DNA of 64,000 bases, from NCBI RefSeq assembly GCF_014855515.1, contig NZ_JACYFK010000001.1:1736001-1800000 (forward strand). The letters are read 5' to 3'. A program made the translations under genes and the position numbers. Position 1 is the stretch's first letter. The number at the start of each line of letters is the position of its first letter. Below are positions 34,458 through 62,903 of the stretch, piece by piece. The notes below the pieces were generated by a model. That model made no database searches and was not told where the DNA came from. It saw only the letters and a program-made list of their open reading frames with translations. This DNA is from Euzebyella marina (GTDB lineage: Bacteria > Bacteroidota > Bacteroidia > Flavobacteriales > Flavobacteriaceae).

Positions 34458-35813
34458 ATGAAAAAGCTATTGTTATCATCTATAGCGTTTGTTTTTTTGC
34501 TTAGCAGTTGCGGCTCAAGAACAAAAGGAGAGCTAGTAGGGGCCCAAGGTAAAAAGTGGTATCCTGAAAAGCCATACGGCATGGAGCTTATCCCTAGGGG
34601 TTCATTTATCATGGGTAAAACCGAAGAAGACCAGGCCAAGCTCTTAAACGCTCCTACAAAGACCGTAACGGTTCGATCGTTCTATATGGATGATACCGAA
34701 ATTACGAATAGTGAATATCGCCAATTTGTTGAATGGGTGAAAGATTCCATTACAAGAACAAGATTGGCTATTTTGGCCGATGAACTTGGTCTAGGCCCTG
34801 AAGATGGCGGTATTGGTGATTACGCGTTTAAAGATGCGGATACGACCAAGCTTTCGGCGTATGATAAATATATGTTGGATAACTATGCCGGTATGGGCGA
34901 AACAGGTTTTGAAGGTAGAGGCCTGAACAAGGACGAGCAGTTAGTTTGGGATATTTCCGATTATCCTGATGAGTACTATACCGAGGTGATGGATTCTTTG
35001 TATATTCCTGAGGAAGAGTCTTATAATGGTCAGCGAACTATTGATGTCACTAAATTGAAGTACAAATATAGCTGGATGGATATCGAAGCTGCCGCTCGAT
35101 CAAGAACTGGTAGTAGAAAAGACTTCATCCGTCAAGAAGAGTTAGAAATTTATCCTGATACGACCGTTTGGATCCGCGATTTTGAATATTCTTACAACGA
35201 ACCAATGCACAATGATTACTTCTGGCATGATGCTTATAGCGATTATCCGGTAGTAGGTGTTTCTTGGGCTCAGGCTAGGGCTTTCTGTAACTGGAGAACC
35301 AAGTTTAAGAATGATGATCAAAAGAGTAGGGGCAAGCAGTTCGTTAACCAGTTTAGACTTCCTACCGAAGCTGAATGGGAATATGCAGCTCGCGGAGGTA
35401 TTGAAGGAGGAACTTATCCTTGGGGTGGCCCTTACGTAATCAGTGATACTGGTTGCTTTATGGCCAACTTTAAACCTCAAAGGGGTGACTATGCTGCAGA
35501 TGCCGCTTTATATACTGTTGAGGCGAAGTCTTACGAGCCTAATGACTTTAACCTGTACAACATGGCTGGTAACGTTTCTGAATGGACGAACTCTAGCTAC
35601 GATCCTAACTCATACGAGTTTGTTTCTACCATGAACCCTAACGGAGGTGATGGCGCCAACGAAAGAAAGGTTATACGTGGTGGTTCTTGGAAAGATGTTG
35701 CTTATTTCCTTCAAGTGAGTACTCGAGATTATGAATACGCAGATTCGGCAAGAAGTTACATCGGCTTTAGAACTGTTCAAGATTATATGGGCGAAGAAGA
35801 TTCAACCCAATAA
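34458..35813 (+). CDS. gldK: Gliding motility/T9SS lipoprotein GldK
   Basis: A 451-residue outer-membrane lipoprotein of the type IX secretion system. The lipobox is LLSSCGSR near residue 19. The body is a formylglycine-generating-enzyme (SUMF) fold with markers GMELIPRGSFIMGKTEE, DDTEITNSEYRQFVEW, VGVSWAQARAFCNWR, RLPTEAEWEYAARGG, NMAGNVSEWTNSSYDPN and RGGSWKDVAYFLQVSTRDY. The catalytic cysteines of true sulfatase-activating enzymes are absent at the C-terminal site, as is normal for GldK. GldK forms the periplasmic ring with GldN. It is the first gene of gldK-gldL-gldM-gldN. The gap to gldL is an unusually long 159 nt and contains an 8-bp inverted repeat. Confidence 0.96.
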   Translation: MKKLLLSSIAFVFLLSSCGSRTKGELVGAQGKKWYPEKPYGMELIPRGSFIMGKTEEDQAKLLNAPTKTVTVRSFYMDDTEITNSEYRQFVEWVKDSITRTRLAILADELGLGPEDGGIGDYAFKDADTTKLSAYDKYMLDNYAGMGETGFEGRGLNKDEQLVWDISDYPDEYYTEVMDSLYIPEEESYNGQRTIDVTKLKYKYSWMDIEAAARSRTGSRKDFIRQEELEIYPDTTVWIRDFEYSYNEPMHNDYFWHDAYSDYPVVGVSWAQARAFCNWRTKFKNDDQKSRGKQFVNQFRLPTEAEWEYAARGGIEGGTYPWGGPYVISDTGCFMANFKPQRGDYAADAALYTVEAKSYEPNDFNLYNMAGNVSEWTNSSYDPNSYEFVSTMNPNGGDGANERKVIRGGSWKDVAYFLQVSTRDYEYADSARSYIGFRTVQDYMGEEDSTQ

Positions 35814-35883
35814 ATTATTACGGGGTCAAAACCCGAAAAGTAATATTAGACGTAAATAAATTTTCAAATACACCGTTCTGAAA

Positions 35884-35901
35884 TTCAATTAGATAATTGA
35901 A
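35884..35901 (+). repeat. Inverted repeat in the gldK-gldL gap
   Basis: TTCAATTA and TAATTGAA, a perfect 8-bp inverted repeat with a 2-nt spacer, lie 70 nt after gldK and 71 nt before gldL. A small CGGG/CCCG hairpin is at 35821-35835. The symmetry could be a protein-binding site or a weak RNA hairpin, and no T-run follows. The other bases of the 159-nt gap are A/T-rich without a clear -7 box. Confidence 0.5.
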
Positions 35902-35972
35902 CTATTAACAAAGTCCAAACAATAAACCAAATCTTTATTTTTAACATTAAATTTCAAATTAAATCTTAAATT

Positions 35973-36626
35973 ATGGCACAGTCAAAATCAACAAAGAAGC
36001 TGTTTAACATGGCCTACGGCCTTGGTGCATCGGTAGTAATTATTGGTGCGTTATTTAAAATTCTACACTGGGAGCTAGGTCCCTTAAATGGTGGTGTCCT
36101 ACTTGCCATCGGTCTTATTACTGAAGCACTTATTTTTGCCATTAGTGCATTCGAGCCGGTAGATGACGAGTACGATTGGTCTTTAGTTTACCCTGAATTG
36201 GCAGGTGGTGAAACTAAAGCTAGAAAAAGCAATGAGGCTGCTGAAATCAAAGAAGCTGAGGCTTCATTGTCAGCTAAATTGGATAACTTATTAAAAGAAG
36301 CTGGTGTAGATGCCAACTTGATGGAAAGCCTTGGTTCTAGCATTCGTAATTTCGAAGGCGCTGCTAAAGGTATCGCTCCTACAGTTGATGCAATGGAGTC
36401 TACAAGAAAGTATTCTGAAGAAATGGTACAAGCTGCCGCTCAGATGGAATCTTTGAACAGCCTTTATAAAGTACAATTAGAAAGTGCAAGCAAGCAAGCT
36501 TCAGTAAACGAAGAAGTTGTTCAGAATGCTTCTGCCCTTAAAGATCAAATGGAGTCATTAGCAACCAACCTTTCTTCATTGAACGGAGTTTATGGTGGTA
36601 TGTTGACTGCAATGAACAGAAACTAA
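35973..36626 (+). CDS. gldL: T9SS/gliding motor subunit GldL
   Basis: A 217-residue inner-membrane protein. Two transmembrane helices (about residues 10-31 and 39-60) are joined by a short loop (KILHWELGPLNGG). The second contains Glu51 in LITEALIF, at the site of the essential proton-path Glu of Flavobacterium GldL. A cytoplasmic helical domain with SLGSSIRNFEGAAKGIAPTVDAM and coiled-coil-like repeats follows. Five GldL and two GldM subunits form the proton-powered rotary motor. It lies between gldK and gldM (57-nt gap). Length matches the family. Confidence 0.96.
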   Translation: MAQSKSTKKLFNMAYGLGASVVIIGALFKILHWELGPLNGGVLLAIGLITEALIFAISAFEPVDDEYDWSLVYPELAGGETKARKSNEAAEIKEAEASLSAKLDNLLKEAGVDANLMESLGSSIRNFEGAAKGIAPTVDAMESTRKYSEEMVQAAAQMESLNSLYKVQLESASKQASVNEEVVQNASALKDQMESLATNLSSLNGVYGGMLTAMNRN

Positions 36627-36683
36627 TTAGATATTAGTAATTACCCCAAATCATTTAAATTAATCAAAATCTAATTAGAAAAC

Positions 36684-38231
36684 ATGGCAGGAGGAAAACA
36701 ATCACCACGTCAGAAGATGATTAACCTAATGTACTTGGTTTTCATCGCAATGTTGGCGTTAAACATGAGTAAGGAGGTACTTTCGGCTTTCGGTATTATG
36801 AACGAAAAGCTAGAAGCTTCCAACGCCAAAACAATCGAAAGTAACGAAGCCTACTTGGCGAATTTAGGAGTAAAAGCGGAAGAGAATGCCGCTAAGTACA
36901 AAGATTTGTACGCAAAAGCTCAGCAAATTAAAACCATGTCCAAAGACTATTATGATTATTTGGAAGGTCTTAAGACTGAGATGATGGCCGAAGTTGAAGA
37001 TCCAAAAGACTATACCGTAATGGATAAATCAGATTATTTGGATCAGAAATTCTTCCAAGGAGATGGCCTTTCAGAAGGTGGAGAAGAATTCATGAAGAGA
37101 ATTCAAGATTACCGTACGCAGGTTGCTGCTATCGTACCACAAGGTATCAAGTCTTCTGTTGAAGCAAGATTTGAAACAAACGAAGTAACTACTCGCGATG
37201 GTTCTAAACAAGATTGGATCAAATATCACTACGAAGGTTTCCCTCAAGTGGCTTCTTTGGCCAAATTGACTGCGCTACAAGCCGATATAAAGGCTACCGA
37301 AGAGTCTGCTTTGAAGGCGATGCTAGAAGGTGAATTGAGCGATCAAGTATCTTTGAAAAACTTTGAAACCTCTCTTTTTGGATCTAAATCTGCTTATTAC
37401 AGCGGAGAAAAGTATGATGGTAAGATTATCATCAGCAAAACTGACAACAGTTCTAAGCCTGTTAGGGCCGAGTTGACCTTAGATGGTCGTAAGCTTTCTG
37501 AAGGTACTGATTACCGTTTAGAAGAAGGTGGAGTTAAAATGTTGGTGGGTGCCGGTGCTCCTGGTGACCATGAAGTTAAAGGAAAGCTTTTCTTTTCTCA
37601 AGATGGTGAGGAAATCGAGGTTCCTGTGAGCAACTCTTTCGCTACTATTAGCAAGCCTAACGCTGCTTTGATAGCTGCTGATAAAATGAACGTTGTTTAT
37701 AGAGGTGTTGCCAACCCAATGTCAATCTCTATTCCTGGTATTCCTAACAACAAGGTTACAGCTTCTGCTCCTGGTCTTAAATCAGCTGGAGGTAGCAAAT
37801 ATGTAATGAATCCTGGAACTGGTAGAACGGTAACTATTACTGCTAGCGGTAAGTTGCCTGATGGTCAAACGGTTTCTTCTAAGTCTGAGTTCAGAATTAA
37901 AGATATTCCAAGACCTGCAGGTACTGTTAGTAAGCAAGATGGTTCGGTTAAAATGCCAAGAAACAATATGGAAATCGCTACTATTGGCGCAATGTTAGAA
38001 GACTTTGACTTTGATTTGAACCTAGCTGTTAGCGGCTTCAAGTTCAAGGTTCCTGGTCAGCCTACTGTAAGCGTTAACGGTAACAAATTGAACGGTATGG
38101 CCAAAACAGCCCTTAAGAGAGCTAAAAGAGGTGATGTTGTTCAGATATTCGATATCCAAGCTTACATTACCAACAATAAGAGTTATAAGTTGAAAAAAGT
38201 ATCTCCTGTAGTTGTGGAGATTACAAACTAA
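36684..38231 (+). CDS. gldM: T9SS/gliding motor subunit GldM
   Basis: A 515-residue bitopic protein. The short cytoplasmic N-terminus MAGGKQSPRQKMINLMYLV includes Arg9, known from GldLM structures to pair with the GldL Glu, followed by one membrane helix (about 13-33, LVFIAMLALNMSKEVLSAFG). The long periplasmic arm has a helical domain (about 35-220) and three Ig-like/beta domains ending PVVVEITN. GldM converts proton flow into rotation and transmits it to the GldKN ring. A perfect 11-bp hairpin sits in the 59-nt gap to gldN. No odd features are seen in the protein. Confidence 0.96.
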   Translation: MAGGKQSPRQKMINLMYLVFIAMLALNMSKEVLSAFGIMNEKLEASNAKTIESNEAYLANLGVKAEENAAKYKDLYAKAQQIKTMSKDYYDYLEGLKTEMMAEVEDPKDYTVMDKSDYLDQKFFQGDGLSEGGEEFMKRIQDYRTQVAAIVPQGIKSSVEARFETNEVTTRDGSKQDWIKYHYEGFPQVASLAKLTALQADIKATEESALKAMLEGELSDQVSLKNFETSLFGSKSAYYSGEKYDGKIIISKTDNSSKPVRAELTLDGRKLSEGTDYRLEEGGVKMLVGAGAPGDHEVKGKLFFSQDGEEIEVPVSNSFATISKPNAALIAADKMNVVYRGVANPMSISIPGIPNNKVTASAPGLKSAGGSKYVMNPGTGRTVTITASGKLPDGQTVSSKSEFRIKDIPRPAGTVSKQDGSVKMPRNNMEIATIGAMLEDFDFDLNLAVSGFKFKVPGQPTVSVNGNKLNGMAKTALKRAKRGDVVQIFDIQAYITNNKSYKLKKVSPVVVEITN

Positions 38232-51968: not shown

Positions 51969-53000
51969 ATGAAAAAAAATATTTTCTGCCTGACGTTGTT
52001 GGCGGGTGCCTTGTATTCCTGTTCAACTAAAAAGGCAGTAAGTGGGGCCTCAGAAGCTCAAGTAACTACCGAACAACCAGTAAAAAGTACAGTAAGTTCT
52101 AGCACCGAAGGATATACTGAAAATGTGCCTGCCACCGAAGTGAGTTTTGATATGGTTTCGATTCCCGGTGGAACCTTTATGATGGGTAGCCCCGAGGCTG
52201 AAGCCAACAGAAAAACGGATGAAGGACCTCAAAAGAATGTAGAGCTTGACCCGTTTTATATGGGGAAATATGAAGTGACGTGGGATCTTTTTGAACTATT
52301 TTTCAAGCAAAATAAAGAGCTTTTTGTTAAGCTTGATGATGATAGGGTAATGAAGGTAGATGCCATTACAAGACCTAGCCCACCTTATGAAGACCCTTCA
52401 TACGGCATGGGTAAAGATGGCTTCCCGGCGGTAAGTATGTCAGCGTATTCCGCTTTGGTTTTCTGTAAATGGTTAAGTACCATTACCGGTAAATTCTATC
52501 GTTTGCCAACCGAGGCCGAATGGGAGTATGCCGCTAGGGCCGGAACAACCACTGCATATAGTTTTGGTGACGATATTTCTCAAATAGACGAGTACGCTGT
52601 TTATTACAAAAACTCTGAAAGCAAATATGCCAAGGCGGGAAGTAAAAAACCAAACCCTTGGGGCCTTTATGATATGCATGGTAATGTGGCCGAATGGACA
52701 CTTGATGAATACAAAGAGGATGCCTATTCGACTACAAAAGATTCGAACCCTTGGGTAACACCAACGGTAATACACCCTCGTTCGTACAGGGGTGGCTCTT
52801 GGGATGATGATGCCGATAAATTACGTTCGGCCTCCAGAACAGCTTCCAGCTTAAAACAGCAGAAGAGAGATCCTCAGATACCTAAAAGCTTTTGGTGGTT
52901 CACTGATTCAAATTATGTGGGTATGAGATTGGTAAGCCCCGTTCAACAACCTTCTGCCGAAGATCAAAAGAAATTTTGGCAACAAGTCTTGGACGAATAA
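51969..53000 (+). CDS. SUMF-domain lipoprotein (non-catalytic FGE-like)
   Basis: A 343-residue lipoprotein (lipobox GALYSCSTK) followed by a Ser/Thr-rich linker (about 22-55) and a formylglycine-generating-enzyme fold. The fold shows MVSIPGGTFMMGSPEAE, YEVTWDLFELFF, RLPTEAEWEYAARAG, GLYDMHGNVAEWTLDEY and YRGGSWDDDADKLRSASRTA. True FGE uses a Cys pair near the C-terminal part; here the corresponding stretch (RSASRTASSLKQQ) has none. So it is not a sulfatase-maturing enzyme and is more likely a structural or binding protein like GldJ/GldK. It stands upstream of a YceI gene. The planctomycete-like DUF1549/1501 module downstream often has SUMF neighbours in other genomes, so association is possible. 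Confidence 0.85.
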   Translation: MKKNIFCLTLLAGALYSCSTKKAVSGASEAQVTTEQPVKSTVSSSTEGYTENVPATEVSFDMVSIPGGTFMMGSPEAEANRKTDEGPQKNVELDPFYMGKYEVTWDLFELFFKQNKELFVKLDDDRVMKVDAITRPSPPYEDPSYGMGKDGFPAVSMSAYSALVFCKWLSTITGKFYRLPTEAEWEYAARAGTTTAYSFGDDISQIDEYAVYYKNSESKYAKAGSKKPNPWGLYDMHGNVAEWTLDEYKEDAYSTTKDSNPWVTPTVIHPRSYRGGSWDDDADKLRSASRTASSLKQQKRDPQIPKSFWWFTDSNYVGMRLVSPVQQPSAEDQKKFWQQVLDE

Positions 53001-53085: not shown

Positions 53086-53610
53086 ATGAAATATATTATT
53101 GCGGCATTCTTGATGCTCGGCACGATTTGTACAAATGCACAGCAAGAATTTAGCTTGAATGAAGAAAGTACCTTGACCATTGACGGAACATCGACCATTC
53201 ATGATTGGACGGTCAATGCCGAACAATTGCAAGGAGAATTGATTGTTGATGGTGGAAAGCCAAAGAAAATTGATTTTGCCGTTGCAGTAGAGGGTATTAA
53301 AAGTGAGCGTGGTGCCACGATGGACAATAAAATGTACAATGCCCTTAAAAAGGATGAGCATCCGAACGTTACTTTTAGTTTAACCGAAGTAAAGGGTGAG
53401 GGTGTTCTTGTTGGGCAACTTTCGATTGCAGGTTCTCAGAATGAAGTTGAGATTCCTGTTTCTATTTCTGATGATGGCGGTTACAAAATTACTGGGGAGT
53501 ACAAACTTGCACTTAAAGATTATGGTATTGAACCACCAACTGCCATGTTCGGGCAAATAGTGGTGGGCGATGATGTAACTGTCAAGTTTGACCTAAAATT
53601 TGCCCAGTAA
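53086..53610 (+). CDS. YceI-family periplasmic lipocalin-like protein
   Basis: A 174-residue protein with a signal peptide (about 1-18, ending TNAQ) and a YceI domain. Marker segments are TIDGTSTIHDWTVNAEQLQG (core DGTSTIHDWT), MYNALKKDEHPNVTFSLTEV and GEYKLALKDYGIEPPTAMFGQIVVGDDVTVKFDL (in part). YceI proteins bind isoprenoid chains such as polyprenyl pyrophosphate or ubiquinone in the periplasm. The gene is 85 nt after the SUMF lipoprotein and 35 nt before the M20 peptidase. A link to the quinone- or heme-dependent module further downstream is possible but not shown. Confidence 0.9.
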   Translation: MKYIIAAFLMLGTICTNAQQEFSLNEESTLTIDGTSTIHDWTVNAEQLQGELIVDGGKPKKIDFAVAVEGIKSERGATMDNKMYNALKKDEHPNVTFSLTEVKGEGVLVGQLSIAGSQNEVEIPVSISDDGGYKITGEYKLALKDYGIEPPTAMFGQIVVGDDVTVKFDLKFAQ

Positions 53611-53645: not shown

Positions 53646-54848
53646 ATGATTTCATCAGTGATGACTTTAGGGGAAAAAATCAAACAAAAGGCTCGTGAAC
53701 TTGCCCCAAAGTACATTGATGTTAGAAGGTATCTACATGCGCACCCAGAGCTTTCTTTTCAAGAATTTGATACATGTAGGTATCTGAAAGACCAACTTTT
53801 GAAGTTGGGTGTTAACGATATTCATTCCGTGGCCAATACAGGTTTGTTGGCCACCATCAAAGGCGGAAAAGAGGGCAGGCAACTGGTCTTACGCTCCGAT
53901 ATGGACGCATTGCCTATTCTCGAAACCAACGATGTCGAGTTTGCTTCTCGAAATGAAGGCGTAATGCATGCCTGTGGTCATGATGCCCACATGTCTTCTT
54001 TATTGCTCTGTGCAGAGATTTTGATAGATTTAAAAGAAGAACTGAGAGGAACCGTGCATTTGCTGTTTCAGCCCGCAGAAGAGCTAATGCCCGGCGGGGC
54101 CAGTTTGGTGATGAAAGAACCCGTTTATCAAAAATTGGGCCAATTGCCTCATATCGGTCAACACGTACGGCCAGATTTACCCGTTGGAACCATCGGTTTT
54201 CGTCCTGGTAAGTTTATGGCTAGTATGGATGAGCTTTTTCTAACGATTAAGGGAAAAGGGGGCCATGCGGCAATGCCCGAGAATGCCGTTGATTCGGTTT
54301 TAATAGCATCGCATATAATTGTTGCGGCACAGCAATTAGTGAGCAGAATGGCTTCTCCAAAGACACCTTCAGTGCTTTCTTTTGGAAAGGTGATTGCCGA
54401 TGGGGCGATCAATGTCTTGCCAGATGAAGTCTATATTGAAGGTACTTTCAGAACAATGGATGAAGCCTGGAGGTCATCGGCTTTGAAAAAATTGAATAAA
54501 ATGGTGGTTGCCATGGCCGAATCAATGGGGGCTACGGCAGAATTAAAGATTAAGCACGGGTATCCGCATTTGATCAATGATCAATCGCTGACCAGTGAAC
54601 TAAGGGTAAATGCCATCAGTTTTGTCGGAAAGGAAAATGTTATCGGTCTAGACCAATGGATGGCCTCGGAAGACTTCTCTTATTACTCGCACGAGCACCC
54701 ATCTTGCTTTTATATGCTAGGTGTGGGTAACAGTGATAAAAATATCGATTCCGGTCTACATACTTCTACTTTTAATATCGATGAATCTGCTTTGGAAATC
54801 GGCGGAGGCTTAATGGCATTTTTAGCTATTTCTAAATTGAGGGATTAG
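53646..54848 (+). CDS. M20-family amidohydrolase (carboxypeptidase-like)
   Basis: A 400-residue zinc-dependent amidohydrolase of the M20D type, probably an N-acyl-amino-acid or IAA-amino-acid-type hydrolase. Metal and catalytic residues lie in HAHPELSFQEFDT, VMHACGHDAHMSSLL, PAEELMPGGAS and the C-terminal WMASEDFSYYSHEHPSCFYMLG. No signal peptide is seen, so it is cytoplasmic. The ATG at 53646 is used; an internal ATG at 53661 would remove five residues. It lies 35 nt after yceI. The 160-nt gap to the next gene is A/T-rich with a 5-bp hairpin (CTGCG/CGCAG at 54979-54993), and I see no other feature there. Confidence 0.9.
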   Translation: MISSVMTLGEKIKQKARELAPKYIDVRRYLHAHPELSFQEFDTCRYLKDQLLKLGVNDIHSVANTGLLATIKGGKEGRQLVLRSDMDALPILETNDVEFASRNEGVMHACGHDAHMSSLLLCAEILIDLKEELRGTVHLLFQPAEELMPGGASLVMKEPVYQKLGQLPHIGQHVRPDLPVGTIGFRPGKFMASMDELFLTIKGKGGHAAMPENAVDSVLIASHIIVAAQQLVSRMASPKTPSVLSFGKVIADGAINVLPDEVYIEGTFRTMDEAWRSSALKKLNKMVVAMAESMGATAELKIKHGYPHLINDQSLTSELRVNAISFVGKENVIGLDQWMASEDFSYYSHEHPSCFYMLGVGNSDKNIDSGLHTSTFNIDESALEIGGGLMAFLAISKLRD

Positions 54849-55008: not shown

Positions 55009-57345
55009 ATGAAAAATGCGGTTGCCCTCGGCTTGATTTTGGGCCTGTCGATAGTATTGCTTTACCTGTATCAGGATGGCTATTTCGACAAGGTGGAAGA
55101 TGATTATGCCTCGGTGGCCCTCCCGGAGACAGTAGATTATAATTTTCACATCAAGCCTATTCTTTCCGATAACTGTTATACCTGTCACGGCCCGGATGCG
55201 AATAAGCGTAAGGCAGGTCTACGACTTGATATAGAAAAGAATGCTCTTTCCGAACTTCCTGAAAGTCCTGGTCATTTTGCAATAGTAGCCGGTAGCCCTG
55301 GCAAAAGCGAGGCCTATCGAGCGATTATATCAGACGACCCGGCTGAACAAATGCCACCGCCCGAGTCGAACCTTTCTCTCACGAATTATGAAAAAAGACT
55401 TCTGAGAAAATGGATAGAACAGGGGGCAGCTTTTGAAAAACATTGGGCATTCATCCCTCCCGAAAAGAAAAAAGTACCTACAGATACCTCTAGTTATCTA
55501 AAAAATGAGATAGATGCCTTTGTAGGTTCCAAATTAAAGGAAAAAGGATTAACATTCTCCCCAAAGGCTTCTAATGACATACTATTGAGAAGAATGGCTT
55601 TAGATGTCACCGGACTGCCACCTGCCCCGGAATTGGTTGATAAATTAATGAGCGAAGCTCCCGATGAGATGCTACAAAGAGCCATTGACACTCTGCTAGC
55701 ATCTCCCGCTTATGGAGAGCGTATGACACAATCATGGCTAGATGTGGCCCGTTACGCTGATTCACATGGGTATCAAGATGATAGTTACCGCACTATGTGG
55801 CCGTGGCGAGACTGGGTCATTCATGCTTTTAATGAAAACCTCTCGTATGACGAATTTCTAACCTGGCAGATTGCAGGCGACCTAATGCCCAATGCAACCA
55901 AGGAACAAATTCTGGCCACGGGTTTCAATAGAAATCACCCCATCACCCAAGAAGGGGGCGTCATTCAAGAGGAATATCGCACGAATTATGTTCTTGATCG
56001 GACCAATACCTTGGGCAAAGGTATTTTGGGGTTGACCCTTGAATGTGCCCGATGCCATGACCATAAGTATGATGCCATTTCGCAAAAAGATTATTTCGGG
56101 TTTTATGCCTTTTTCAATCAGGTAAATGAGAAGGGTATTCAAATGGATGCCGTTCAGGCCAAAAATCAAAAATTCTTTGCAGACCCTCCTTATATCGGTA
56201 TTAGTGCCAAAGATACGGTTGGGGTACTGTCTTTTGTGAATATGAACGGTTCAAATCCCGTAAATGTCATGGTGATGAACGATTCAGCACCAAAAACAAC
56301 GTTTGTACTTGACAGGGGAGAATATGACCGCCCGACGGATTCGGTGCTTCCCGGTACGCCATCAATTATACTTCCGTTTGCGAACGATTTGGCCAAGAAT
56401 CGTTTGGGTCTGGCTCAATGGTTGACCGATAGAAAAAATCCTTTGACCGCGCGCGTATTGGTCAATAGAATTTGGGGTACGCTTTTCGGAAGGGGATTGG
56501 TAGAAACTTCCGAAGATTTTGGGGTGCAGGGTAGTTTGCCGACCCATCCAGAATTATTGGACTGGTTAGCGGTTGATTTCATGGAAAACGGATGGGATAT
56601 CAAGTATCTAATTAAAAAAATAATGCTTTCTGCAACTTATCAACAGCGCTCTGAACTTACCCCTGAACTAGAAAAGGCTGACCCTGAGAACAAGTGGTTG
56701 GCCCGGGCTGGGCGTTTCCGAATGAGTGGGGAAATGATAAGAGACTATATATTGGCTACAAGTGGTCTTCTGAACCGCGAAATCGGTGGCCCTAGTGTAC
56801 GACCTTATCAACCTGAAGGGCTTTGGGAAGAAACCAACGCCGGTAGTGAAAGAGGGGTTCTCACAAGTTATGTACCCGATAGTGGCGATGATCTTTACCG
56901 CCGTTCACTTTATACTTTTTGGAAACGTACCCTTCCACCTCCTTCGATGACCATTTTCGATGCTCCTAATCGAGATTTTTCTGAGGTGCGGCGGCAAAAG
57001 ACCAATACACCCCTGCAAGCTTTGGTACTTCAAAACGATGTTCAAATACTTGAGGCAGCTCGGGTGTTGGCCGAAAAGATGCTTAATGATGGGGGAAAGG
57101 ACAATCTTGTTCCCCAGTTGTTCGAAAGAATATTGGTGCGTAGCCCTCGGAAGGAGGAACTGTTAACCCTCACGGCCTACTATCACGATGCATTAAACAC
57201 CTATGGGTCAAAACCCAAGGATGCTGAAAAATTGGTGGCGGTGGGAGATTATCCTCACCTGAAAACAGACCCCGTGAGTACGGCGGCACTTATGCTAACT
57301 GCACAAGTAATCTACAATCTAGACGAAACTATTACCAAGGAATAA
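55009..57345 (+). CDS. Planctomycete-type cytochrome c/DUF1549/DUF1553 protein
   Basis: A 778-residue extracytoplasmic protein. An N-terminal anchor (about 3-20) is followed by a PSCyt1-like heme domain with CYTCHGPDANKRKAG near residue 56 and EQMPPPES (possible axial Met). The DUF1549 (PSCyt2) domain, about 150-355, includes a second CxxCH (ECARCHDHKYDAIS near residue 345). DUF1553 (PSD1), about 455-720, has NPLTARVLVNRIWGTLFGRGLVETSEDFG and YRRSLYTFWKRTLPPPSM. Such three-part proteins are abundant in Planctomycetes and rare elsewhere, with no known reaction. It is the first gene of a tight run with the DUF1501 and membrane-cytochrome genes, so the product is part of a redox system in the periplasm. 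Confidence 0.9.
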   Translation: MKNAVALGLILGLSIVLLYLYQDGYFDKVEDDYASVALPETVDYNFHIKPILSDNCYTCHGPDANKRKAGLRLDIEKNALSELPESPGHFAIVAGSPGKSEAYRAIISDDPAEQMPPPESNLSLTNYEKRLLRKWIEQGAAFEKHWAFIPPEKKKVPTDTSSYLKNEIDAFVGSKLKEKGLTFSPKASNDILLRRMALDVTGLPPAPELVDKLMSEAPDEMLQRAIDTLLASPAYGERMTQSWLDVARYADSHGYQDDSYRTMWPWRDWVIHAFNENLSYDEFLTWQIAGDLMPNATKEQILATGFNRNHPITQEGGVIQEEYRTNYVLDRTNTLGKGILGLTLECARCHDHKYDAISQKDYFGFYAFFNQVNEKGIQMDAVQAKNQKFFADPPYIGISAKDTVGVLSFVNMNGSNPVNVMVMNDSAPKTTFVLDRGEYDRPTDSVLPGTPSIILPFANDLAKNRLGLAQWLTDRKNPLTARVLVNRIWGTLFGRGLVETSEDFGVQGSLPTHPELLDWLAVDFMENGWDIKYLIKKIMLSATYQQRSELTPELEKADPENKWLARAGRFRMSGEMIRDYILATSGLLNREIGGPSVRPYQPEGLWEETNAGSERGVLTSYVPDSGDDLYRRSLYTFWKRTLPPPSMTIFDAPNRDFSEVRRQKTNTPLQALVLQNDVQILEAARVLAEKMLNDGGKDNLVPQLFERILVRSPRKEELLTLTAYYHDALNTYGSKPKDAEKLVAVGDYPHLKTDPVSTAALMLTAQVIYNLDETITKE

Positions 57346-57357
57346 ACGAAAGAAGCT

Positions 57358-58818
57358 ATGGAAGAAAAGGACAACAAAAAGGAAAACCCGTTGAAGGTGA
57401 ACAGGCGTCACTTTTTCTCCCAATTGAGCGTGGGCATAGGTTCACTGGCTCTTGGTTCATTGTTGATTCCCGACCTTTTCAAGAATACTGGCGGTCAGCA
57501 AGCCAGCCAGCCGTTGGGGTTGCCCCACTTTGCACCAAAAGCCAAAAGGGTCATTTATCTATTTCAGGCCGGTGCCCCTTCTCAATTGGAGACTTTTGAC
57601 CATAAGCCTATTTTGAGAAAACGAATGGGGGAGGATTTGCCGGAATCGGTGCGTAATGGACAACGATTAACGGGAATGACCGCTAATCAAGAAAAATTCC
57701 CCTTGATGCCCCCAGCAGTGAACTTTAAGCAATATGGTCAGAGTGGCACATGGATCAGTGATTATTTCCCTCATATCGCTAAAATCGCAGATGATATAAC
57801 GGTTGTGAGAAGCATGCATACAGAGGCTATCAATCATGATCCCGCTATCACTTTTTTTCAAACCGGAAGTCAAATATCAGGTAGGCCCAGTATGGGCTCT
57901 TGGCTAAGTTACGGTTTGGGTAGCGAAAATAAGAACCTACCCTCGTTTGTAGTACTTACCTCTAGAGGCAAGGGTAACAGTCAGGGGTTGTATTCAAAAC
58001 TTTGGTCAAGTGGTTTTCTTGATTCAAAGCACCAAGGCGTGCTTTTGCGTTCAGGCAAAGACCCGGTACTTTACCTAAATGATCCAGACGGTATATCTCG
58101 CTCTACTAAAAGAGATTTGCTGAATGAGGTATCAGAACTGAATAGATTGCATCATGTAGAGACTGGAGACGATGAAATAGAATCACGAATTGCCCAATAC
58201 GAAATGGCATACCGAATGCAAATGTCTGTGCCGGATGTGATGGACATTTCGAAGGAGCCAGAATCAGTTGTCAAATTATACGGTGAAGATTGTCAGGTGC
58301 CCGGCACTTATGCTGCCAATGCCCTTCAAGCTCGAAGGTTGGCTGAAAATGGGGTGCGTTTTATTCAGTTATACCACCAAGGCTGGGATCAGCATGGGAA
58401 TCTACCTGATGAGATGGCGGGCCAGGCCAAAGATGTTGACCAAGCTTCGGCTGCTCTTGTTATGGACTTGAAGCAACGAGGTATGCTTGAAGATACCTTG
58501 GTCATTTGGGGAGGTGAGTTTGGCCGCAGTAATTATTGCCAGGGGAAATTCGATCCTGCCAATTATGGTAGGGATCATCACCCAAGGGCATTTAGCATTT
58601 GGATGGCCGGAGGAGGAATCAAGCCAGGCCTTAATTATGGACAAACCGACGAATTTGGGTACAATGTAGTAGAAAATCCGGTGCACATCAACGATTTTCA
58701 TGCTACGCTCATGTATGCCTTGGGTCTCGACCATGAACAACTTACTTATAAATATCAGGGTAGAAGATTTAGGCTCACCGATGTGGCCGGTAATGTGGTT
58801 AAAGACTTATTGGCTTAA
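57358..58818 (+). CDS. DUF1501 family Tat-type exported protein
   Basis: A 486-residue protein. The N-terminus VNRRHFFSQLSVGIGSLALG is a twin-arginine (Tat) signal (RRxFF pattern, residues about 15-35). This suggests folded export, perhaps with a cofactor. The DUF1501 body includes RVIYLFQAGAPSQLETFDHKP, MHTEAINHDPAITFFQTGSQ, GGEFGRSNYCQG and GRDHHPRAFSIWMAGGGI; these resemble alkaline-phosphatase/sulfatase-fold metal sites with His and Asp residues. Enzymatic function is not established. It lies 12 nt after the PSCyt1/DUF1549/DUF1553 protein. Its stop overlaps the next start (TAATG), so the three genes are translationally coupled. Confidence 0.9.
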   Translation: MEEKDNKKENPLKVNRRHFFSQLSVGIGSLALGSLLIPDLFKNTGGQQASQPLGLPHFAPKAKRVIYLFQAGAPSQLETFDHKPILRKRMGEDLPESVRNGQRLTGMTANQEKFPLMPPAVNFKQYGQSGTWISDYFPHIAKIADDITVVRSMHTEAINHDPAITFFQTGSQISGRPSMGSWLSYGLGSENKNLPSFVVLTSRGKGNSQGLYSKLWSSGFLDSKHQGVLLRSGKDPVLYLNDPDGISRSTKRDLLNEVSELNRLHHVETGDDEIESRIAQYEMAYRMQMSVPDVMDISKEPESVVKLYGEDCQVPGTYAANALQARRLAENGVRFIQLYHQGWDQHGNLPDEMAGQAKDVDQASAALVMDLKQRGMLEDTLVIWGGEFGRSNYCQGKFDPANYGRDHHPRAFSIWMAGGGIKPGLNYGQTDEFGYNVVENPVHINDFHATLMYALGLDHEQLTYKYQGRRFRLTDVAGNVVKDLLA

Positions 58819-60263
58819 TGGTTGCACAAGGTTTTAAGGGCCGTTGGGTAGAGCTTATGGTCTTGGCGCTTTCGGTATTTCTTGTTTTTTGTCTCATTTT
58901 TGAATCCTTTATTGAATTGCCGTCGATAGTCGGGTGGATGGGTAGGTGGCACCCATTGATACTGCATTTTCCTATTGTACTGCTGGTTATTATTGTCTTT
59001 CTAGGCTTTACAGGTCGGGAGATTCCCAAACTTCTTTTTCAGATTGCGGTAATTACCGTTTTATTGACTGCGATATCGGGTTTTTTTCTGGGGAAAAGTA
59101 CAGGTGAAAAGGGAGCTTTGTTGCTCTGGCACCAATGGCTGGGGGCTTCTTTGGCTTTGGTGGCAGTTCTTTTATATAGATTCCGGGCAGAGCTTCAAAA
59201 GAGTTTGATTCTCAGGAAAGTATGTATGGGTTTAATTTTGTTATTGGTCGGGTTCACTGGTCATTATGGCGGTATGATTACCCATGGGGAAGATTTTCTG
59301 GCTTTACCAGGCGCAGACGGCCCCAGAGAACTGCCGGAAGACCCTCAGGTGTACTCTGATTTGGTGGTTCCTATTTTGGAGGATAAGTGCATGTCGTGCC
59401 ATAATCCCGACAAGCGAAAAGGAGAACTATCGGTCAAAGGGTTCTCATCTTTAATGAAAGGAGGGGAGAGCGGAAATACGGTCTTACCTGGAAATTATGA
59501 AGAGAGCACTTTGATAACAAGATTGCACCTTCCTTTAGAGGATGAAGAACATATGCCGCCTGAAGGAAAGTCTCAATTAGAAGTCGAGGAAATAACTATT
59601 CTGGAAAGGTGGATTGCCTTAGGAGCCTCGGATACCCTCCAATTATCCTTACTTGCACCATCAGAACCATTGGCGGGTATAATCAAGAAAATGATGGGCG
59701 CGGCATCTAGTAGCGATTGGTCTCGATTACCTATGGTGGCAGATGAGACTATTGATCAACTTTCCAATGATTATTTGACTATTACAAGAATGGCCGGTGG
59801 GTCTAACGCCTTGGGTATCGATGCTTTTCCGCCACCGGAATACGACTCCAAACCCATTCAGGATTTGGAAGCGGTGGCCGCAAACATTGTTGAACTTGAC
59901 TTGAGCGGTTTGCCGATAGGTGATAACGAGATGAATATGGTGGAGAAGTGTGCCAATTTAGAATGGTTAGAGCTTGATAGAACTCCGGTTACCGACCAAG
60001 ATTTTCAAAAAATTACGGGTCTTAAGCAGCTCAGGCTCTTAAAGATATACGGCACCAAAATTTCTGACCGGTCTATTTCGGTAATTCAAGGTCTTGAAAA
60101 TCTAAAAAGGCTTTACATTTGGAGTACGGAAGTAAGTAATGAGGCACTTGAACAATTAGCCCGACAACGACCCGATATTGTTATCGAAAAAGGTATCGAC
60201 GATAAGATTCAAAACTTTTTGGAGGCAAAGGATACGGTGCCGAACCTAGAAAAGAAAGAATAG
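58818..60263 (+). CDS. Membrane c-type cytochrome with DUF2231-like helices and leucine-rich repeats
   Basis: A 481-residue protein. The N-terminal half has four or five hydrophobic segments (about 10-165), with HPLILHFPIVLLVIIVFLGF like DUF2231 proteins and several His residues (HPLILH, LWHQW, GHYGGMITHGED) that may hold b-type heme. A c-type heme site follows (DKCMSCHNPDKRKGELS near residue 189) with HMPPEGKSQ near 250, a PSCyt1-like domain. The C-terminal 130 residues are leucine-rich repeats (NIVELDLSGLPIGDNEMN, LEWLELDRTPVTDQDFQKI). This combination of membrane redox and LRR parts is unusual. Start and stop overlap the DUF1501 gene (TAATG), and the SDR gene begins 2 nt after. It is probably the membrane electron link for the exported DUF1549/DUF1501 proteins, which is inference. 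Confidence 0.85.
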   Translation: MVAQGFKGRWVELMVLALSVFLVFCLIFESFIELPSIVGWMGRWHPLILHFPIVLLVIIVFLGFTGREIPKLLFQIAVITVLLTAISGFFLGKSTGEKGALLLWHQWLGASLALVAVLLYRFRAELQKSLILRKVCMGLILLLVGFTGHYGGMITHGEDFLALPGADGPRELPEDPQVYSDLVVPILEDKCMSCHNPDKRKGELSVKGFSSLMKGGESGNTVLPGNYEESTLITRLHLPLEDEEHMPPEGKSQLEVEEITILERWIALGASDTLQLSLLAPSEPLAGIIKKMMGAASSSDWSRLPMVADETIDQLSNDYLTITRMAGGSNALGIDAFPPPEYDSKPIQDLEAVAANIVELDLSGLPIGDNEMNMVEKCANLEWLELDRTPVTDQDFQKITGLKQLRLLKIYGTKISDRSISVIQGLENLKRLYIWSTEVSNEALEQLARQRPDIVIEKGIDDKIQNFLEAKDTVPNLEKKE

Positions 60264-60265
60264 GA

Positions 60266-61042
60266 ATGAAGTTTGATTTAAAAGGAAAAAATGCCATTGT
60301 AACTGGTGGCGGAAGTGGTATTGGTAGGGCGATTTCAAGAACATTGGCTTCGCATGGTGCACATGTTCATATCTTTGAACTGACCAAAGAGTCTGCCAAT
60401 GATGTCGTTGAAGAAATCAATAATCAGGGCGGAACTGTTCACGCTTATAGCTGTAATGTATCCAATCAAGATGAGGTGAAATCAAATGTGGCTGCTATTG
60501 CTGAAGAAGGCAGTATTGATATATTGATCAACAATGCAGGTATCGCACACATCGGAAATGTTGAAAAAACGACGGAGCAAGATTTCGATAGAATCTATAA
60601 TGTCAATATCAAAGGTGTGTACAATTGCATTCATGCGGTCATACCGTTTATGAAAGAAAAAGGCGGGGTTATTCTTAATATGGCCTCTATTGCCGCCACT
60701 GTAGGAATCAAAGATAGGTTTGCCTACTCAATGTCAAAAGGGGCGGCTTTGACTATGATGTACTCCGTGGCCAAAGACTATTTAGAGTATAATATACGTT
60801 GCAATAGTATTTCACCGGCAAGAATTCATACCCCATTTGTAGATGGGTATTTAAAAAATAACTTTCCTGATACGGCAGAGGAGAAATTCAATCAATTGTC
60901 GGCTACTCAACCTATAGGGCGAATGGGTAAACCCCAAGAGGTGGCCGATTTGGCGCTGTATTTATGCTCCGATGAGGCTTCTTTTGTTACCGGAACCGAT
61001 TTTCCTATTGATGGAGGATTTATTCGCCTAAACGGTAACTAA
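60266..61042 (+). CDS. Short-chain dehydrogenase/reductase
   Basis: A 258-residue classical SDR. The nucleotide motif is VTGGGSGIGRAISRTLAS (TGxxxGIG), the NNAG motif follows near residue 89, and the active site has Ser and YSMSK (YxxxK) in ASIAATVGIKDRFAYSMSKGAAL. The C-terminus includes GTDFPIDGGFI. It oxidises or reduces a sugar, alcohol or keto group, with substrate unknown. It starts 2 nt after the membrane cytochrome gene and is cotranscribed with the DUF1549-DUF1501-cytochrome run, so it probably processes that pathway's cytoplasmic substrate. It is convergent with the ECF sigma gene, overlapping by 4 nt. Confidence 0.92.
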   Translation: MKFDLKGKNAIVTGGGSGIGRAISRTLASHGAHVHIFELTKESANDVVEEINNQGGTVHAYSCNVSNQDEVKSNVAAIAEEGSIDILINNAGIAHIGNVEKTTEQDFDRIYNVNIKGVYNCIHAVIPFMKEKGGVILNMASIAATVGIKDRFAYSMSKGAALTMMYSVAKDYLEYNIRCNSISPARIHTPFVDGYLKNNFPDTAEEKFNQLSATQPIGRMGKPQEVADLALYLCSDEASFVTGTDFPIDGGFIRLNGN

Positions 61043-61626
61043 CGTAAAACAGGTCTTCCGTAAAGCAGGAAGAATACGGTTTCGTATTGGTCTCCTAAAC
61101 TATCTCTAAGTCTATTGTAGGCTTTTCTTATTTGTACTTCAACCGTACGAACGGAAATAGAGAGGTGCTCCGAAATTTCTTTATTGGTAAGCCCCTCCTG
61201 TTTGCTAAGTCGAAAAATCTCGCGGCACTTCGGGGGTAATTTTTCTATCTCTTTCGATAAAAGTCCGAGAAATCTTTCCAGCTTATATTCGTTGGTCTCT
61301 TCTACGACTTCGAACATGTGTTTGTAATACTTGTCTTCAAGAGGCAACAACTTTTTGCCTTGCCTATATTCATCAACAAATTCATGATAGGCCATTTTGT
61401 AAAGAAAACTTTGAATGGGGTAATTGGCTTTTAGTTTTTTTCTGAACTTCCAAGTTTTGATAAAAACGTTCTGAACAATGTCTTGGGCCAACGCCCTATC
61501 ATCAATTAAAGTAAGGGTATAGGCAAACAATTTTCTATGGTATTTTTCTAAAAGAAAAATGTAGGCTTCTTCCTTTCCTTTGCTTAAATCCTGTATCAAA
61601 GCCTCATTGTTATTGTATGTTGCCAT
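61039..61626 (-). CDS. ECF RNA polymerase sigma factor (Bacteroidetes FecI-like)
   Basis: A 195-residue sigma-70 family protein. Region 2 (about 25-95) includes FAYTLTLIDDRALAQDIVQNVFIKTW, and region 4 (about 130-180) has KLPPKCREIFRLSKQEGLTNKEISEHLSISVRTVEVQIRKAYNRL (core LTNKEISEHLSISVRTVE). It directs transcription of envelope genes after release from its anti-sigma factor. It faces away from the FecR gene at 61743 (divergent start, 116-nt gap), and the SusC gene lies beyond. This is the usual Bacteroidetes sigma/FecR/SusC signalling arrangement. No TAnnTTTG box precedes it, and the gap is otherwise A/T-rich. Confidence 0.93.
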   Translation of the reverse strand: MATYNNNEALIQDLSKGKEEAYIFLLEKYHRKLFAYTLTLIDDRALAQDIVQNVFIKTWKFRKKLKANYPIQSFLYKMAYHEFVDEYRQGKKLLPLEDKYYKHMFEVVEETNEYKLERFLGLLSKEIEKLPPKCREIFRLSKQEGLTNKEISEHLSISVRTVEVQIRKAYNRLRDSLGDQYETVFFLLYGRPVLR

Positions 61627-61742: not shown

Positions 61743-62903
61743 ATGAAATTAAGTTCCCTCGAAACACTTCTAGTGAAGTTTATGGGCAATTCTGCCAACG
61801 GTAATGATTTAGATGAACTAAACGAATACCTTGGGCAAGATGATTACAAAGGTTTTATCAAAAATTATTTAAGAGCACATTTTGTCGTTTTATATAAAAT
61901 GAACCAACCCGATTTAGAACAGACCAAAAAAGAACTATTAAAAGAGATAAGGCGGGACAAAAGGCTCACTCTTAAAAGAAACCTCTATCAAGGTTTAAAG
62001 TATGCTGCGATACTCGTTTGTTTTATCGCTGTAGGAATTTATATGTTCACCAGACAAGAGAATGAACTGAGCCCTCAAATTCCCGCAACGGAAAATGTAA
62101 TCACGCTCGAACATTCGAACGGTCAGGTCGAGGAGATATCCGAATCTGGCAACCTTTCAATTAAGAGTAAAAGCGGCGAGGTAATCGCACAGCAGTCGGG
62201 CAACAAAATAAGTTTCAACTCCCAAGCTGCCTCCAATGAAAAAGTAGAATACAGTACCATCACGGTTCCGTATGGCAAAAATATAACCTTGGCGCTCTCT
62301 GATAGTACCGAAGTCATCATGAATGCAGGAAGCCGTATGACTTTTCCCAACCGATTCAGAACAGGGTACAAGCGGAAGGTGAAACTTTCCGGCGAAGCCT
62401 TTTTTAAGGTGGCTCATGATGAAAAACATCCGTTTATTGTTGGTTTAGATAGCTTAGACGTTCAGGTTTTAGGAACTGCTTTTAATGTAGCTAACTATAC
62501 TGAAGATGCTACTACAGAGGTTGTTTTGGTAAATGGATCGGTCGAACTGGTGCCCACTACAGAAAGGGTTGCGAAGGTGTTGTTAAAGCCTGGCTTTAAA
62601 GGCACTTTTTATAAAAACAGTTCAAGAATCGAAACGGCAGAAGTACCTACCGATTTATATACTTCTTGGGTAAATGGGTATGTGGTCTTTAGAAACGCCC
62701 CTTTCAAGAACATTCTACAAAAGCTTGAAAGGCATTACAATGTTACCATCAATAACCCCGAGGGGCACTTGGTAGATGAAAAATTCAATGCTACCATAGA
62801 TGTGCAACATGAAACGATCAGTGAGGTGCTCGATTATTTCAGCAAAATTCACAATATCAAGTTTCAGGTCAATGATGACCAAATAACAATTTTAAAAAAA
62901 TGA
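61743..62903 (+). CDS. FecR-type anti-sigma factor
   Basis: A 386-residue inner-membrane protein. A cytoplasmic part (about 1-82, with LSSLETLLVKFMGNSANGND) precedes one membrane segment (about 90-108, YAAILVCFIAVGIYMF). The FecR domain follows with VEYSTITVPYGKNITLALSDSTEVIMNAGS (core STITVPYGKNITLALSDST), FPNRFRTGYKRKVKLSGEAFFKVAHDEKHPF and VLGTAFNVANY. A C-terminal DUF4974-like region carries YVVFRNAPFKNILQKLERHYNV. It binds the sigma factor on one side and the receptor's STN domain on the other. It is 143 nt from the SusC gene. Between them a 17-residue open frame is too short to support. Confidence 0.93.
   Translation: MKLSSLETLLVKFMGNSANGNDLDELNEYLGQDDYKGFIKNYLRAHFVVLYKMNQPDLEQTKKELLKEIRRDKRLTLKRNLYQGLKYAAILVCFIAVGIYMFTRQENELSPQIPATENVITLEHSNGQVEEISESGNLSIKSKSGEVIAQQSGNKISFNSQAASNEKVEYSTITVPYGKNITLALSDSTEVIMNAGSRMTFPNRFRTGYKRKVKLSGEAFFKVAHDEKHPFIVGLDSLDVQVLGTAFNVANYTEDATTEVVLVNGSVELVPTTERVAKVLLKPGFKGTFYKNSSRIETAEVPTDLYTSWVNGYVVFRNAPFKNILQKLERHYNVTINNPEGHLVDEKFNATIDVQHETISEVLDYFSKIHNIKFQVNDDQITILKK

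Follow-up and report, generated by a model that had tools for sequence, protein, structure and literature searches.

Proteins with the 'planctomycete-specific' cytochrome (PSCyt) domains are the closest described counterparts of the system analyzed here. The domains PSCyt2 (DUF1549) and PSD1 (DUF1553) each occur 41 times in Rhodopirellula baltica, according to the available text of Wecke et al. (2009, PMC2754498), and the accessible part of He et al. (2017, PMC5615132) states that PSCyt2 genes usually neighbor a gene family of unknown role and that their function is not known. A role of PSCyt/PSD proteins in carbohydrate use and their nearness to sulfatases have already been proposed in those portions of the two papers, and PSCyt1 serves as a mere label in the corresponding part of PMC11495043. 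Within the sections of the open-licence PMC literature considered here we found no reaction for PSCyt2/PSD1 proteins, and we found no open-licence PMC paper that treats DUF1501 together with DUF1553. Here we describe a four-gene set from the marine flavobacterium Euzebyella marina, in which such a cytochrome (CYT), a DUF1501 protein and a membrane cytochrome (MEM) are followed by a short-chain dehydrogenase/reductase (SDR). The set lies on the plus strand at positions 55009-61042 of a 64,000-nucleotide stretch (the window; C1:1736001-1800000) of the 4.67 Mb genome. Computation supports the co-conservation of the first three genes (the triad), their invariant heme sites, the DUF1501 fold, the orthology of the SDR to FucF and its single recruitment to the triad. 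With about even confidence, we consider the best overall explanation to be an exported redox triad whose expression is probably joined to L-fucose breakdown and whose most likely substrate contains fucose.

A co-conserved exported heme-type triad

The four genes and their predicted sites are as follows.

55009..57345, plus strand: CYT, an N-terminally anchored PSCyt1-PSCyt2 (DUF1549)-PSD1 (DUF1553) protein of 778 aa (open reading frame, Pfam, alignment, model)
55174..55188, plus strand: predicted heme c site 1 of CYT, CYTCH, residues 56-60, in the PSCyt1 domain (CxxCH motif)
55351-55353, plus strand: axial-Met candidate M115 of CYT (residue invariance)
56044..56058, plus strand: predicted heme c site 2 of CYT, CARCH, residues 346-350, in the PSCyt2 domain, inside the motif CHDHKYD (CxxCH motif)
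57358..58818, plus strand: DUF1501 protein of 486 aa with the Tat-type N terminus NRRHFF (Pfam, model, Foldseek, motif counts)
58818..60263, plus strand: MEM, 481 aa, with about five N-terminal helices (DUF2231-like family), a PSCyt1 heme domain and leucine-rich repeats (LRRs) (Pfam, hydrophobic segments)
59388..59402, plus strand: predicted heme c site of MEM, CMSCH, residues 191-195 (CxxCH motif), with axial-Met candidate M246
60266..61042, plus strand: SDR, 258 aa, FucF by orthology (ligand pattern R151-R186-Y195-T214; catalytic S141-Y154-K158)

The initial annotation of this DNA had described four packed genes encoding an anchored DUF1549/DUF1553 protein with two CxxCH sites, a Tat-exported DUF1501 protein, a membrane cytochrome and an SDR, and most of that description holds. 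The open reading frame list gives the same gaps of 12, -1 (one shared base) and 2 nt, and Pfam places PSCyt1, PSCyt2 and PSD1 in gene 1, DUF1501 in gene 2, PSCyt1 in gene 3 and adh_short_C2 in gene 4. The set has three CxxCH sites, at residues 56 and 346 of CYT and 191 of MEM.

All three domains of CYT score above the curated cut-offs (PSCyt1 56.1 bits, cut-off 22; PSCyt2 273.1, cut-off 29.8; PSD1 346.1, cut-off 28.5), and the single hydrophobic segment is N-terminal. We aligned the window CYT with 62 of the 73 listed references, omitting similar or odd rows; the aligned sequences (n=63) are 38-71% identical to the window CYT. Two CxxCH motifs are present in 63/63. Invariant in the same 63 sequences are C56, C59, H60, M115 and P116 around the first site, C346, C349, H350, H352, K353 and D355 around the second, and also W243, R248, D258, R267 and D268. 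M115-P116 follows the first CxxCH at what is presumably the usual axial-Met place in class I cytochromes. Profile matches in the PDB link the PSCyt1 part to FoxE (E 1.2e-6) and hydrazine synthase alpha (E 4.9e-4), and the structure model of CYT (pLDDT 87.8, pTM 0.88) has no PDB fold match at E<=0.001 among 350,542 chains (best E 4.9).

The DUF1501 protein matches its family with 519.2 bits against a cut-off of 27. It was aligned with 59 of 68 listed references, again without similar or odd rows, and an N-terminal RR in all 60 sequences agrees with Tat-type export. D344, H346, E387, D406 and H407 are invariant in 60/60. Foldseek returned 177 matches at E<=0.001 for the structure model (pLDDT 79.3, pTM 0.81), and the 50 matches listed, with TM-scores of 0.27-0.36, belong to the alkaline-phosphatase/sulfatase superfamily. 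The model thus makes the superfamily clear, though not the details of the fold, as the TM-scores are only about 0.3. The first-strand metal Asp of the superfamily looks to be replaced by Q, A or G, judging from the alignment. A formylglycine sulfatase was considered and ruled out, since C/S-x-P-x-R occurs in 0/60 aligned proteins.

MEM has five distinct hydrophobic segments and a single CxxCH, the latter in 42/42 aligned proteins (41 of 49 listed references plus the window, similar or odd rows omitted). C191, C194, H195 and the MPP motif M246-P247-P248 are invariant in this alignment, as are H50, H105, H149 and H156. The constancy of the CxxCH motifs in CYT and MEM, and of the RR in DUF1501, exceeds what chance would give. 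With five helices and the cytochrome domain outside, these four His would all be near the outer face, an arrangement that would suit a b heme held between them. The helices and the heme site of the initial annotation are therefore found, and its other two labels fared less evenly: there is no DUF2231 Pfam match in the window MEM even at E<=1, yet 40/42 aligned MEM proteins have one, and the LRRs, weak in Pfam (best E 0.0043), come out more distinctly in a comparison with solved internalins (best E 2e-7). Fn3_assoc and CHB_HEX_C_1 (beta-hexosaminidase C-terminal-like) domains are each found in 35/42 aligned MEM proteins (E<=1), the window MEM having neither. A beta-hexosaminidase C-terminal-like domain is also present on one alpha-L-fucosidase-domain protein of the window genome.

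Gene order was compared in the best 80 of 587 relatives from a CYT profile scan, of which 59 are Bacteroidota by title. Within this sample DUF1501 follows CYT in 51 of the 53 Bacteroidota loci with enough sequence, and a same-strand MEM gene is present within five genes in 46/50. Between DUF1501 and MEM there is no gene in 31 of these 46 loci, one in 11 and two in 4; the intervening genes that were scanned, from the 15/46 loci with one or two, are beta-propeller-like. The 21 non-Bacteroidota loci have DUF1501 after CYT in 12/13, the single miss (L155) being an artefact in which a second, minus-strand CYT was picked, and MEM in 0/9. The last count had suggested that MEM is confined to Bacteroidota. 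A search of 12 non-Bacteroidota genomes then placed MEM relatives at other sites in some of them, with many further matches covering the PSCyt1 domain only. Six such places were examined and include two contiguous triads, L209 (Verrucomicrobiales) and L210 (Phycisphaerae), both from the Planctomycetes-Verrucomicrobia-Chlamydiae group; these overturn the restriction. The initial annotation had also asked whether all four genes recur together, and this applies to the triad, while the SDR is absent behind it in 4/10 orthologous loci. Taken together, the alignments and gene order support CYT-DUF1501-MEM as a co-conserved, exported heme-type unit that recurs in Bacteroidota.

We did not find a universal fourth partner of the triad: a Pfam scan of 126 of 170 neighbor genes, which included 2 of the 19 genes between DUF1501 and MEM, gave 165 families, the commonest in 3 neighbors (E<=1e-5). 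The closest CYT relatives among the named records of the best 80, from which very near records were possibly excluded, are from Maribacter and Arenibacter (Flavobacteriaceae). In the CYT tree, the 46 Bacteroidota rows form one side of a branch against the 17 other rows (SH-aLRT 100, quick method), and the GC content at third codon positions (GC3) of the four genes is 0.36-0.44, close to the mean of 0.395 (sd 0.033) over 35 other window open reading frames. The Bacteroidota-side branch and the native-like GC3 rule out a recent transfer of the operon from Planctomycetes.

PSD1 matches occur in three genes of the window genome: the window CYT, a second triad (C1:12-32 kb) and a fused version (C1:1598-1618 kb). 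In the second triad (L003:6815-14876; C1:19-27 kb), DUF1501 and MEM are separated by a 293-aa gene that matches no Pfam family, and the triad is followed by a gene for a DASS-type sodium-anion symporter. The fused version (L004:8145-15437; C1:1606-1613 kb) encodes a DUF2231/PSCyt1...PSD1 protein and DUF1501, then 2Fe-2S and molybdopterin hydroxylase-like proteins; it sits behind a SusC/SusD pair and puts a PSCyt module next to an oxidoreductase of a familiar type. In another genome (G047), fused MEM/CYT-like and DUF1501 genes lie near an alpha-L-rhamnosidase gene, another deoxy-sugar context (L073:3097-11453).

The fourth gene as a candidate FucF

The SDR has no hydrophobic segment. As far as sequence can settle it, the protein is FucF, the 4-dehydrogenase that acts on L-2-keto-3-deoxyfuconate (L-KDF) in non-phosphorylating L-fucose catabolism. 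Among 99 related genomes, 18 hold an orthologue, at 19 places in all (E<=1e-60), and two Maribacter loci (L084 and L085) bring the set to 21. A FucG-like FAA hydrolase directly adjoins the SDR in 14/21 places; L185 has a FucG-like gene within 7 genes, L182 has FucC instead, and neither lies in the stretch examined around the SDR in the window, L035, L036, L041 or L184. FucC-like genes are near 5/21 SDR orthologues, and in several of the clusters other genes score as FucP, fuconolactonase and mutarotase, alongside a further SDR. Labels for alpha-L-fucosidase, FucC and FucG were assigned by eye and then checked with Pfam for the genes of the window genome. FucC (L-fuconate dehydratase) had no NCBIfam match above cut-off, and we assume this label from the likeness of the sequence together with its context. 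NCBIfam labels the FucG-like hydrolase a 2,4-didehydro-3-deoxy-L-rhamnonate hydrolase, below cut-off (342.5 against 500 bits); we favor fuconate over rhamnonate because fucose genes are present and because of the SDR type.

Structural records point the same way. The second and third PDB matches of the SDR are 8XWK and 8Y4J, the L-KDF dehydrogenase of Herbaspirillum huttiense (entry identity from PMC11199699). Four ligand patterns of this enzyme (types 1-4) have been shown to be active in the available portion of that paper, type 4 being R-R-F-T in Sphingobacterium mizutaii SMI01S_RS12625. Among the 21 orthologues the pattern is R-R-F-T in 13 and R-R-Y-T in 8 (window included), and the catalytic S-Y-K is present in 21/21. 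Tyr occupies the third ligand position in 7/8 triad-linked SDRs and in L047, and Phe in all 12 of L182-L193 and in L040. This split could reflect a substrate shift, or mere descent.

The window genome has a separate fucose cluster (C1:512-532 kb) with FucC, FucG and three alpha-L-fucosidase-domain genes and no SDR alongside, and the most similar other SDR in the genome reaches just 35% identity to the window SDR. The window SDR is therefore the sole FucF candidate of its type found in the genome. The initial annotation had the SDR working on what the exported reaction makes or uses. Since orthology makes it FucF, its step would be cytoplasmic and late in L-fucose breakdown, and we replace that proposal with likely co-expression of the triad with a late step.

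Recruitment of FucF to the triad

Eight SDRs encoded directly behind a triad form a single clade (97/93) inside the fucose-cluster family. The tree thus supports a single recruitment of FucF into the triad operon, within a group of Flavobacteriaceae, and the linkage is retained in all 8 sampled members of the recruited clade. One genome (G020) has both the triad-linked and the fucose-cluster kind of SDR. Attachment of the SDR was seen only in Flavobacteriaceae-type genomes, which, with the position of CYT in a Bacteroidota clade, runs counter to the earlier view that the four-gene set is typical of Planctomycetes.

Of the 99 related genomes, 10 encode a close orthologue of MEM, with an identity of 44% or more. 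The SDR follows MEM in 6 of them (gaps of -1 to 167 nt) and is in fucose-related clusters in the other 4. FucF is found in 10/10 of these genomes against 8/89 others, and FucC in 8/10 against 2/89. Through its fourth gene, the set looks to be tied to the use of fucose-containing, probably algal, sugars.

Genomic neighborhood

The genes flanking the set within the window are as follows.

51969..53000, plus strand: FGE-sulfatase-domain protein (Pfam; flank conserved among relatives)
53086..53610, plus strand: YceI-like exported protein (Pfam; conserved flank)
53646..54848, plus strand: M20-family amidohydrolase (Pfam; conserved flank)
61039..61626, minus strand: extracytoplasmic function (ECF) sigma factor, which opens a sigma/FecR/SusC/SusD/sulfatase locus extending past the window (Pfam)
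61743..62903, plus strand: FecR anti-sigma factor of the downstream SusC/SusD locus (Pfam)

Counting the window, 8/10 orthologous loci have the FGE and YceI genes upstream of CYT, with no more than a single gene intervening, and in 6/10 the M20 amidohydrolase gene immediately precedes CYT. The FGE-sulfatase-domain gene is possibly in the same transcription unit as CYT. Downstream, the opposite-strand sigma gene separates the four-gene set from a SusC/SusD pair and a sulfatase, which come just past the window end, so the sulfatase and SusCD neighbors sought by the initial annotation are present. Two same-genus loci (L035 and L036) have the identical sigma/FecR/SusC/SusD order, and this context fits sulfated algal sugars. 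No pointer to aromatic substrates turned up, though no search was aimed at them.

Further downstream, within the same SusC/SusD-sulfatase locus just past the window (L001:7545-14540), are genes encoding FAD_oxidored, CstA-like, GDSL and SASA esterase, GMC oxidoreductase and gluconate-2-dh3 proteins. Elsewhere in the window, positions 12891-15233 encode a 780-aa multicopper oxidase-domain protein, and positions 34458-38231 hold an FGE-sulfatase-domain gene and a GldM gene, presumably part of a gliding/type IX secretion system set.

Proposed function and alternatives

In the following scheme the catalytic role of CYT, the presence of a b heme, the path of the electrons, the co-expression and the substrate are inferred. 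The first three genes would form one exported, membrane-bound redox module. CYT, held by its N-terminal helix, would carry two c hemes, and its large, strongly conserved and mostly helical DUF1549/DUF1553 body would be the catalytic part. DUF1501, a folded Tat substrate with an unusual conserved Asp/His/Glu set, may handle or hold the substrate beside CYT. Electrons leaving CYT could reach the c heme of MEM first, move on to a b-type heme on the conserved His and end in the quinone pool. In the cytoplasm, the NAD-dependent FucF would feed FucG, giving pyruvate and L-lactate. Because the module is probably expressed with L-fucose breakdown in this lineage, its substrate is most likely a fucose-containing glycan, a fucoside or L-fucose outside the cytoplasm, and our best guess for the reaction is a fucose-linked respiratory oxidation. 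A bolder version, which we regard as rather unlikely, is that the triad, transcribed together with FucF, is a new class of respiratory carbohydrate oxidoreductase and works outside the cytoplasm by oxidizing L-fucose or a fucosylated algal glycan. It would combine a heme-c catalytic CYT of PDB-unmatched fold, a Tat-exported partner of alkaline-phosphatase fold and a c/b-heme, quinone-reducing anchor, and one operon would then couple the first (exported) and a late (cytoplasmic) fucose oxidation.

Several observations weigh against a fucose-linked triad. The four orthologous loci with no SDR behind MEM have been mentioned, and 3 of the 5 nearest named loci also lack it; the window and the two same-genus loci have no FucG or FucC gene near the SDR; and the window SDR departs from the proven type 4 enzyme at the third ligand position, with Tyr instead of Phe. 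An SDR paralogue from another cluster also tracks MEM orthologues (8/10 against 4/89), so a shared algal lifestyle may explain the link between MEM and FucF. We infer from its neighbors that this paralogue is L-galactose-type; in the window genome it lies at C2:493.6 kb. Locus L196 of this genome (C2:482-502 kb) perhaps encodes an L-galactose pathway, with genes for a zinc alcohol dehydrogenase and an SDR and with fuconolactonase-like, FucP-like, mutarotase-like and KDG-kinase-like genes. Most other Bacteroidota triads are without visible fucose context, as no Pfam family occurs in more than 3 of the 126 neighbors. Because the flanks are also kept, retention of FucF behind the triad may be mere synteny. 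The last two points favor a triad of general use, an exported redox or envelope module with no tie to fucose, behind which fucF was inserted and then kept by synteny and promoter use, as does the presence of fucF in fucose-related clusters in 4/10 genomes with an orthologous triad. We rate this explanation as possible and somewhat less probable than a fucose-linked module. Against it stand the overlap or 1-2 nt spacing of MEM and SDR in two genera (27-167 nt in four more loci), the four loci (L037, L040, L084 and L085) in which a FucG-like gene comes after the SDR, the linkage kept in every sampled member of the recruited clade and the adjacent SusC/SusD-sulfatase locus.

The redox and hydrolytic parts could also be assigned differently. 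If DUF1501 were the enzyme, a metal-dependent hydrolase acting on esters of sulfate, phosphate or other kinds, the cytochromes would serve only to sense or tune the redox state or to hold DUF1501 at the membrane. Its alkaline-phosphatase/sulfatase fold and five invariant Asp/His/Glu residues agree with such a role, but the lack of C/S-x-P-x-R, the conservation of both CYT heme sites and the invariance of W243, R248, D258, R267, D268 and H352 of CYT (63/63), far beyond what an anchor needs, make it improbable in our view. More doubtful still is that the triad is a respiratory L-fucose dehydrogenase, which would give L-fuconolactone or L-fuconate outside the cytoplasm and replace the soluble FucA (and FucB). 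A fucose-cluster FucA-like SDR is indeed missing from the six genomes in which FucF is triad-linked (G000, G001, G002, G020, G034 and G052) and present in the four with unlinked triads (G003, G008, G013 and G039; 74-100% identity to the G013 query), a hint that the triad or the SDR paralogue takes the place of FucA. However, all six linked genomes keep the 56-58% identical SDR paralogue and a fuconolactonase-like gene in the same place, with a FucP-like gene beside the paralogue in the four examined (G000, G020, G034 and G052), and these genes may do the same job; the six may also simply share ancestry. A triad that is probably co-expressed with L-fucose breakdown, its own reaction less closely specified, is the explanation we prefer.

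Comparison with known systems

The PSCyt/PSD domains are already in print, and we did not find the FucF link in the open-licence PMC literature. A PSCyt operon that contains a biochemically known kind of fucose enzyme gives a short substrate list for a marine flavobacterium and could open up the whole family. If the fucose link is true, heme-based oxidation would have a place in the turnover of algal sulfated sugars.

Parts of the set resemble described enzymes. DUF1501 shares a fold with the alkaline-phosphatase/sulfatase superfamily and differs in its TM-scores of 0.27-0.36 and in lacking the formylglycine motif. The type 4 L-KDF 4-dehydrogenase of S. mizutaii, in the available part of PMC11199699, is likewise an SDR with S-Y-K and has R-R-F-T in place of the R-R-Y-T of the window; the two were compared by ligand pattern, not by sequence, and the window SDR is encoded behind a triad operon instead of in a fucose cluster. 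The periplasmic 3-keto-glycoside systems with LacABC and DUF1080, as described in the accessible portion of PMC9007349, also carry out exported sugar oxidation at the membrane. The GMC oxidoreductase and gluconate-2-dh3 subunit encoded 13-15 kb downstream of the window set recall LacABC-type systems, but Pfam finds no DUF1080, GMC or Gfo/Idh domain within the four genes. The closest likeness is to the PSCyt/PSD proteins of Rhodopirellula and Verrucomicrobia, which, as far as the available text describes them, have the same Pfam domains as the window CYT. Compared with these, the window set belongs to a Bacteroidota clade, has a membrane cytochrome as its third gene and fucF attached, and comes with fold data.

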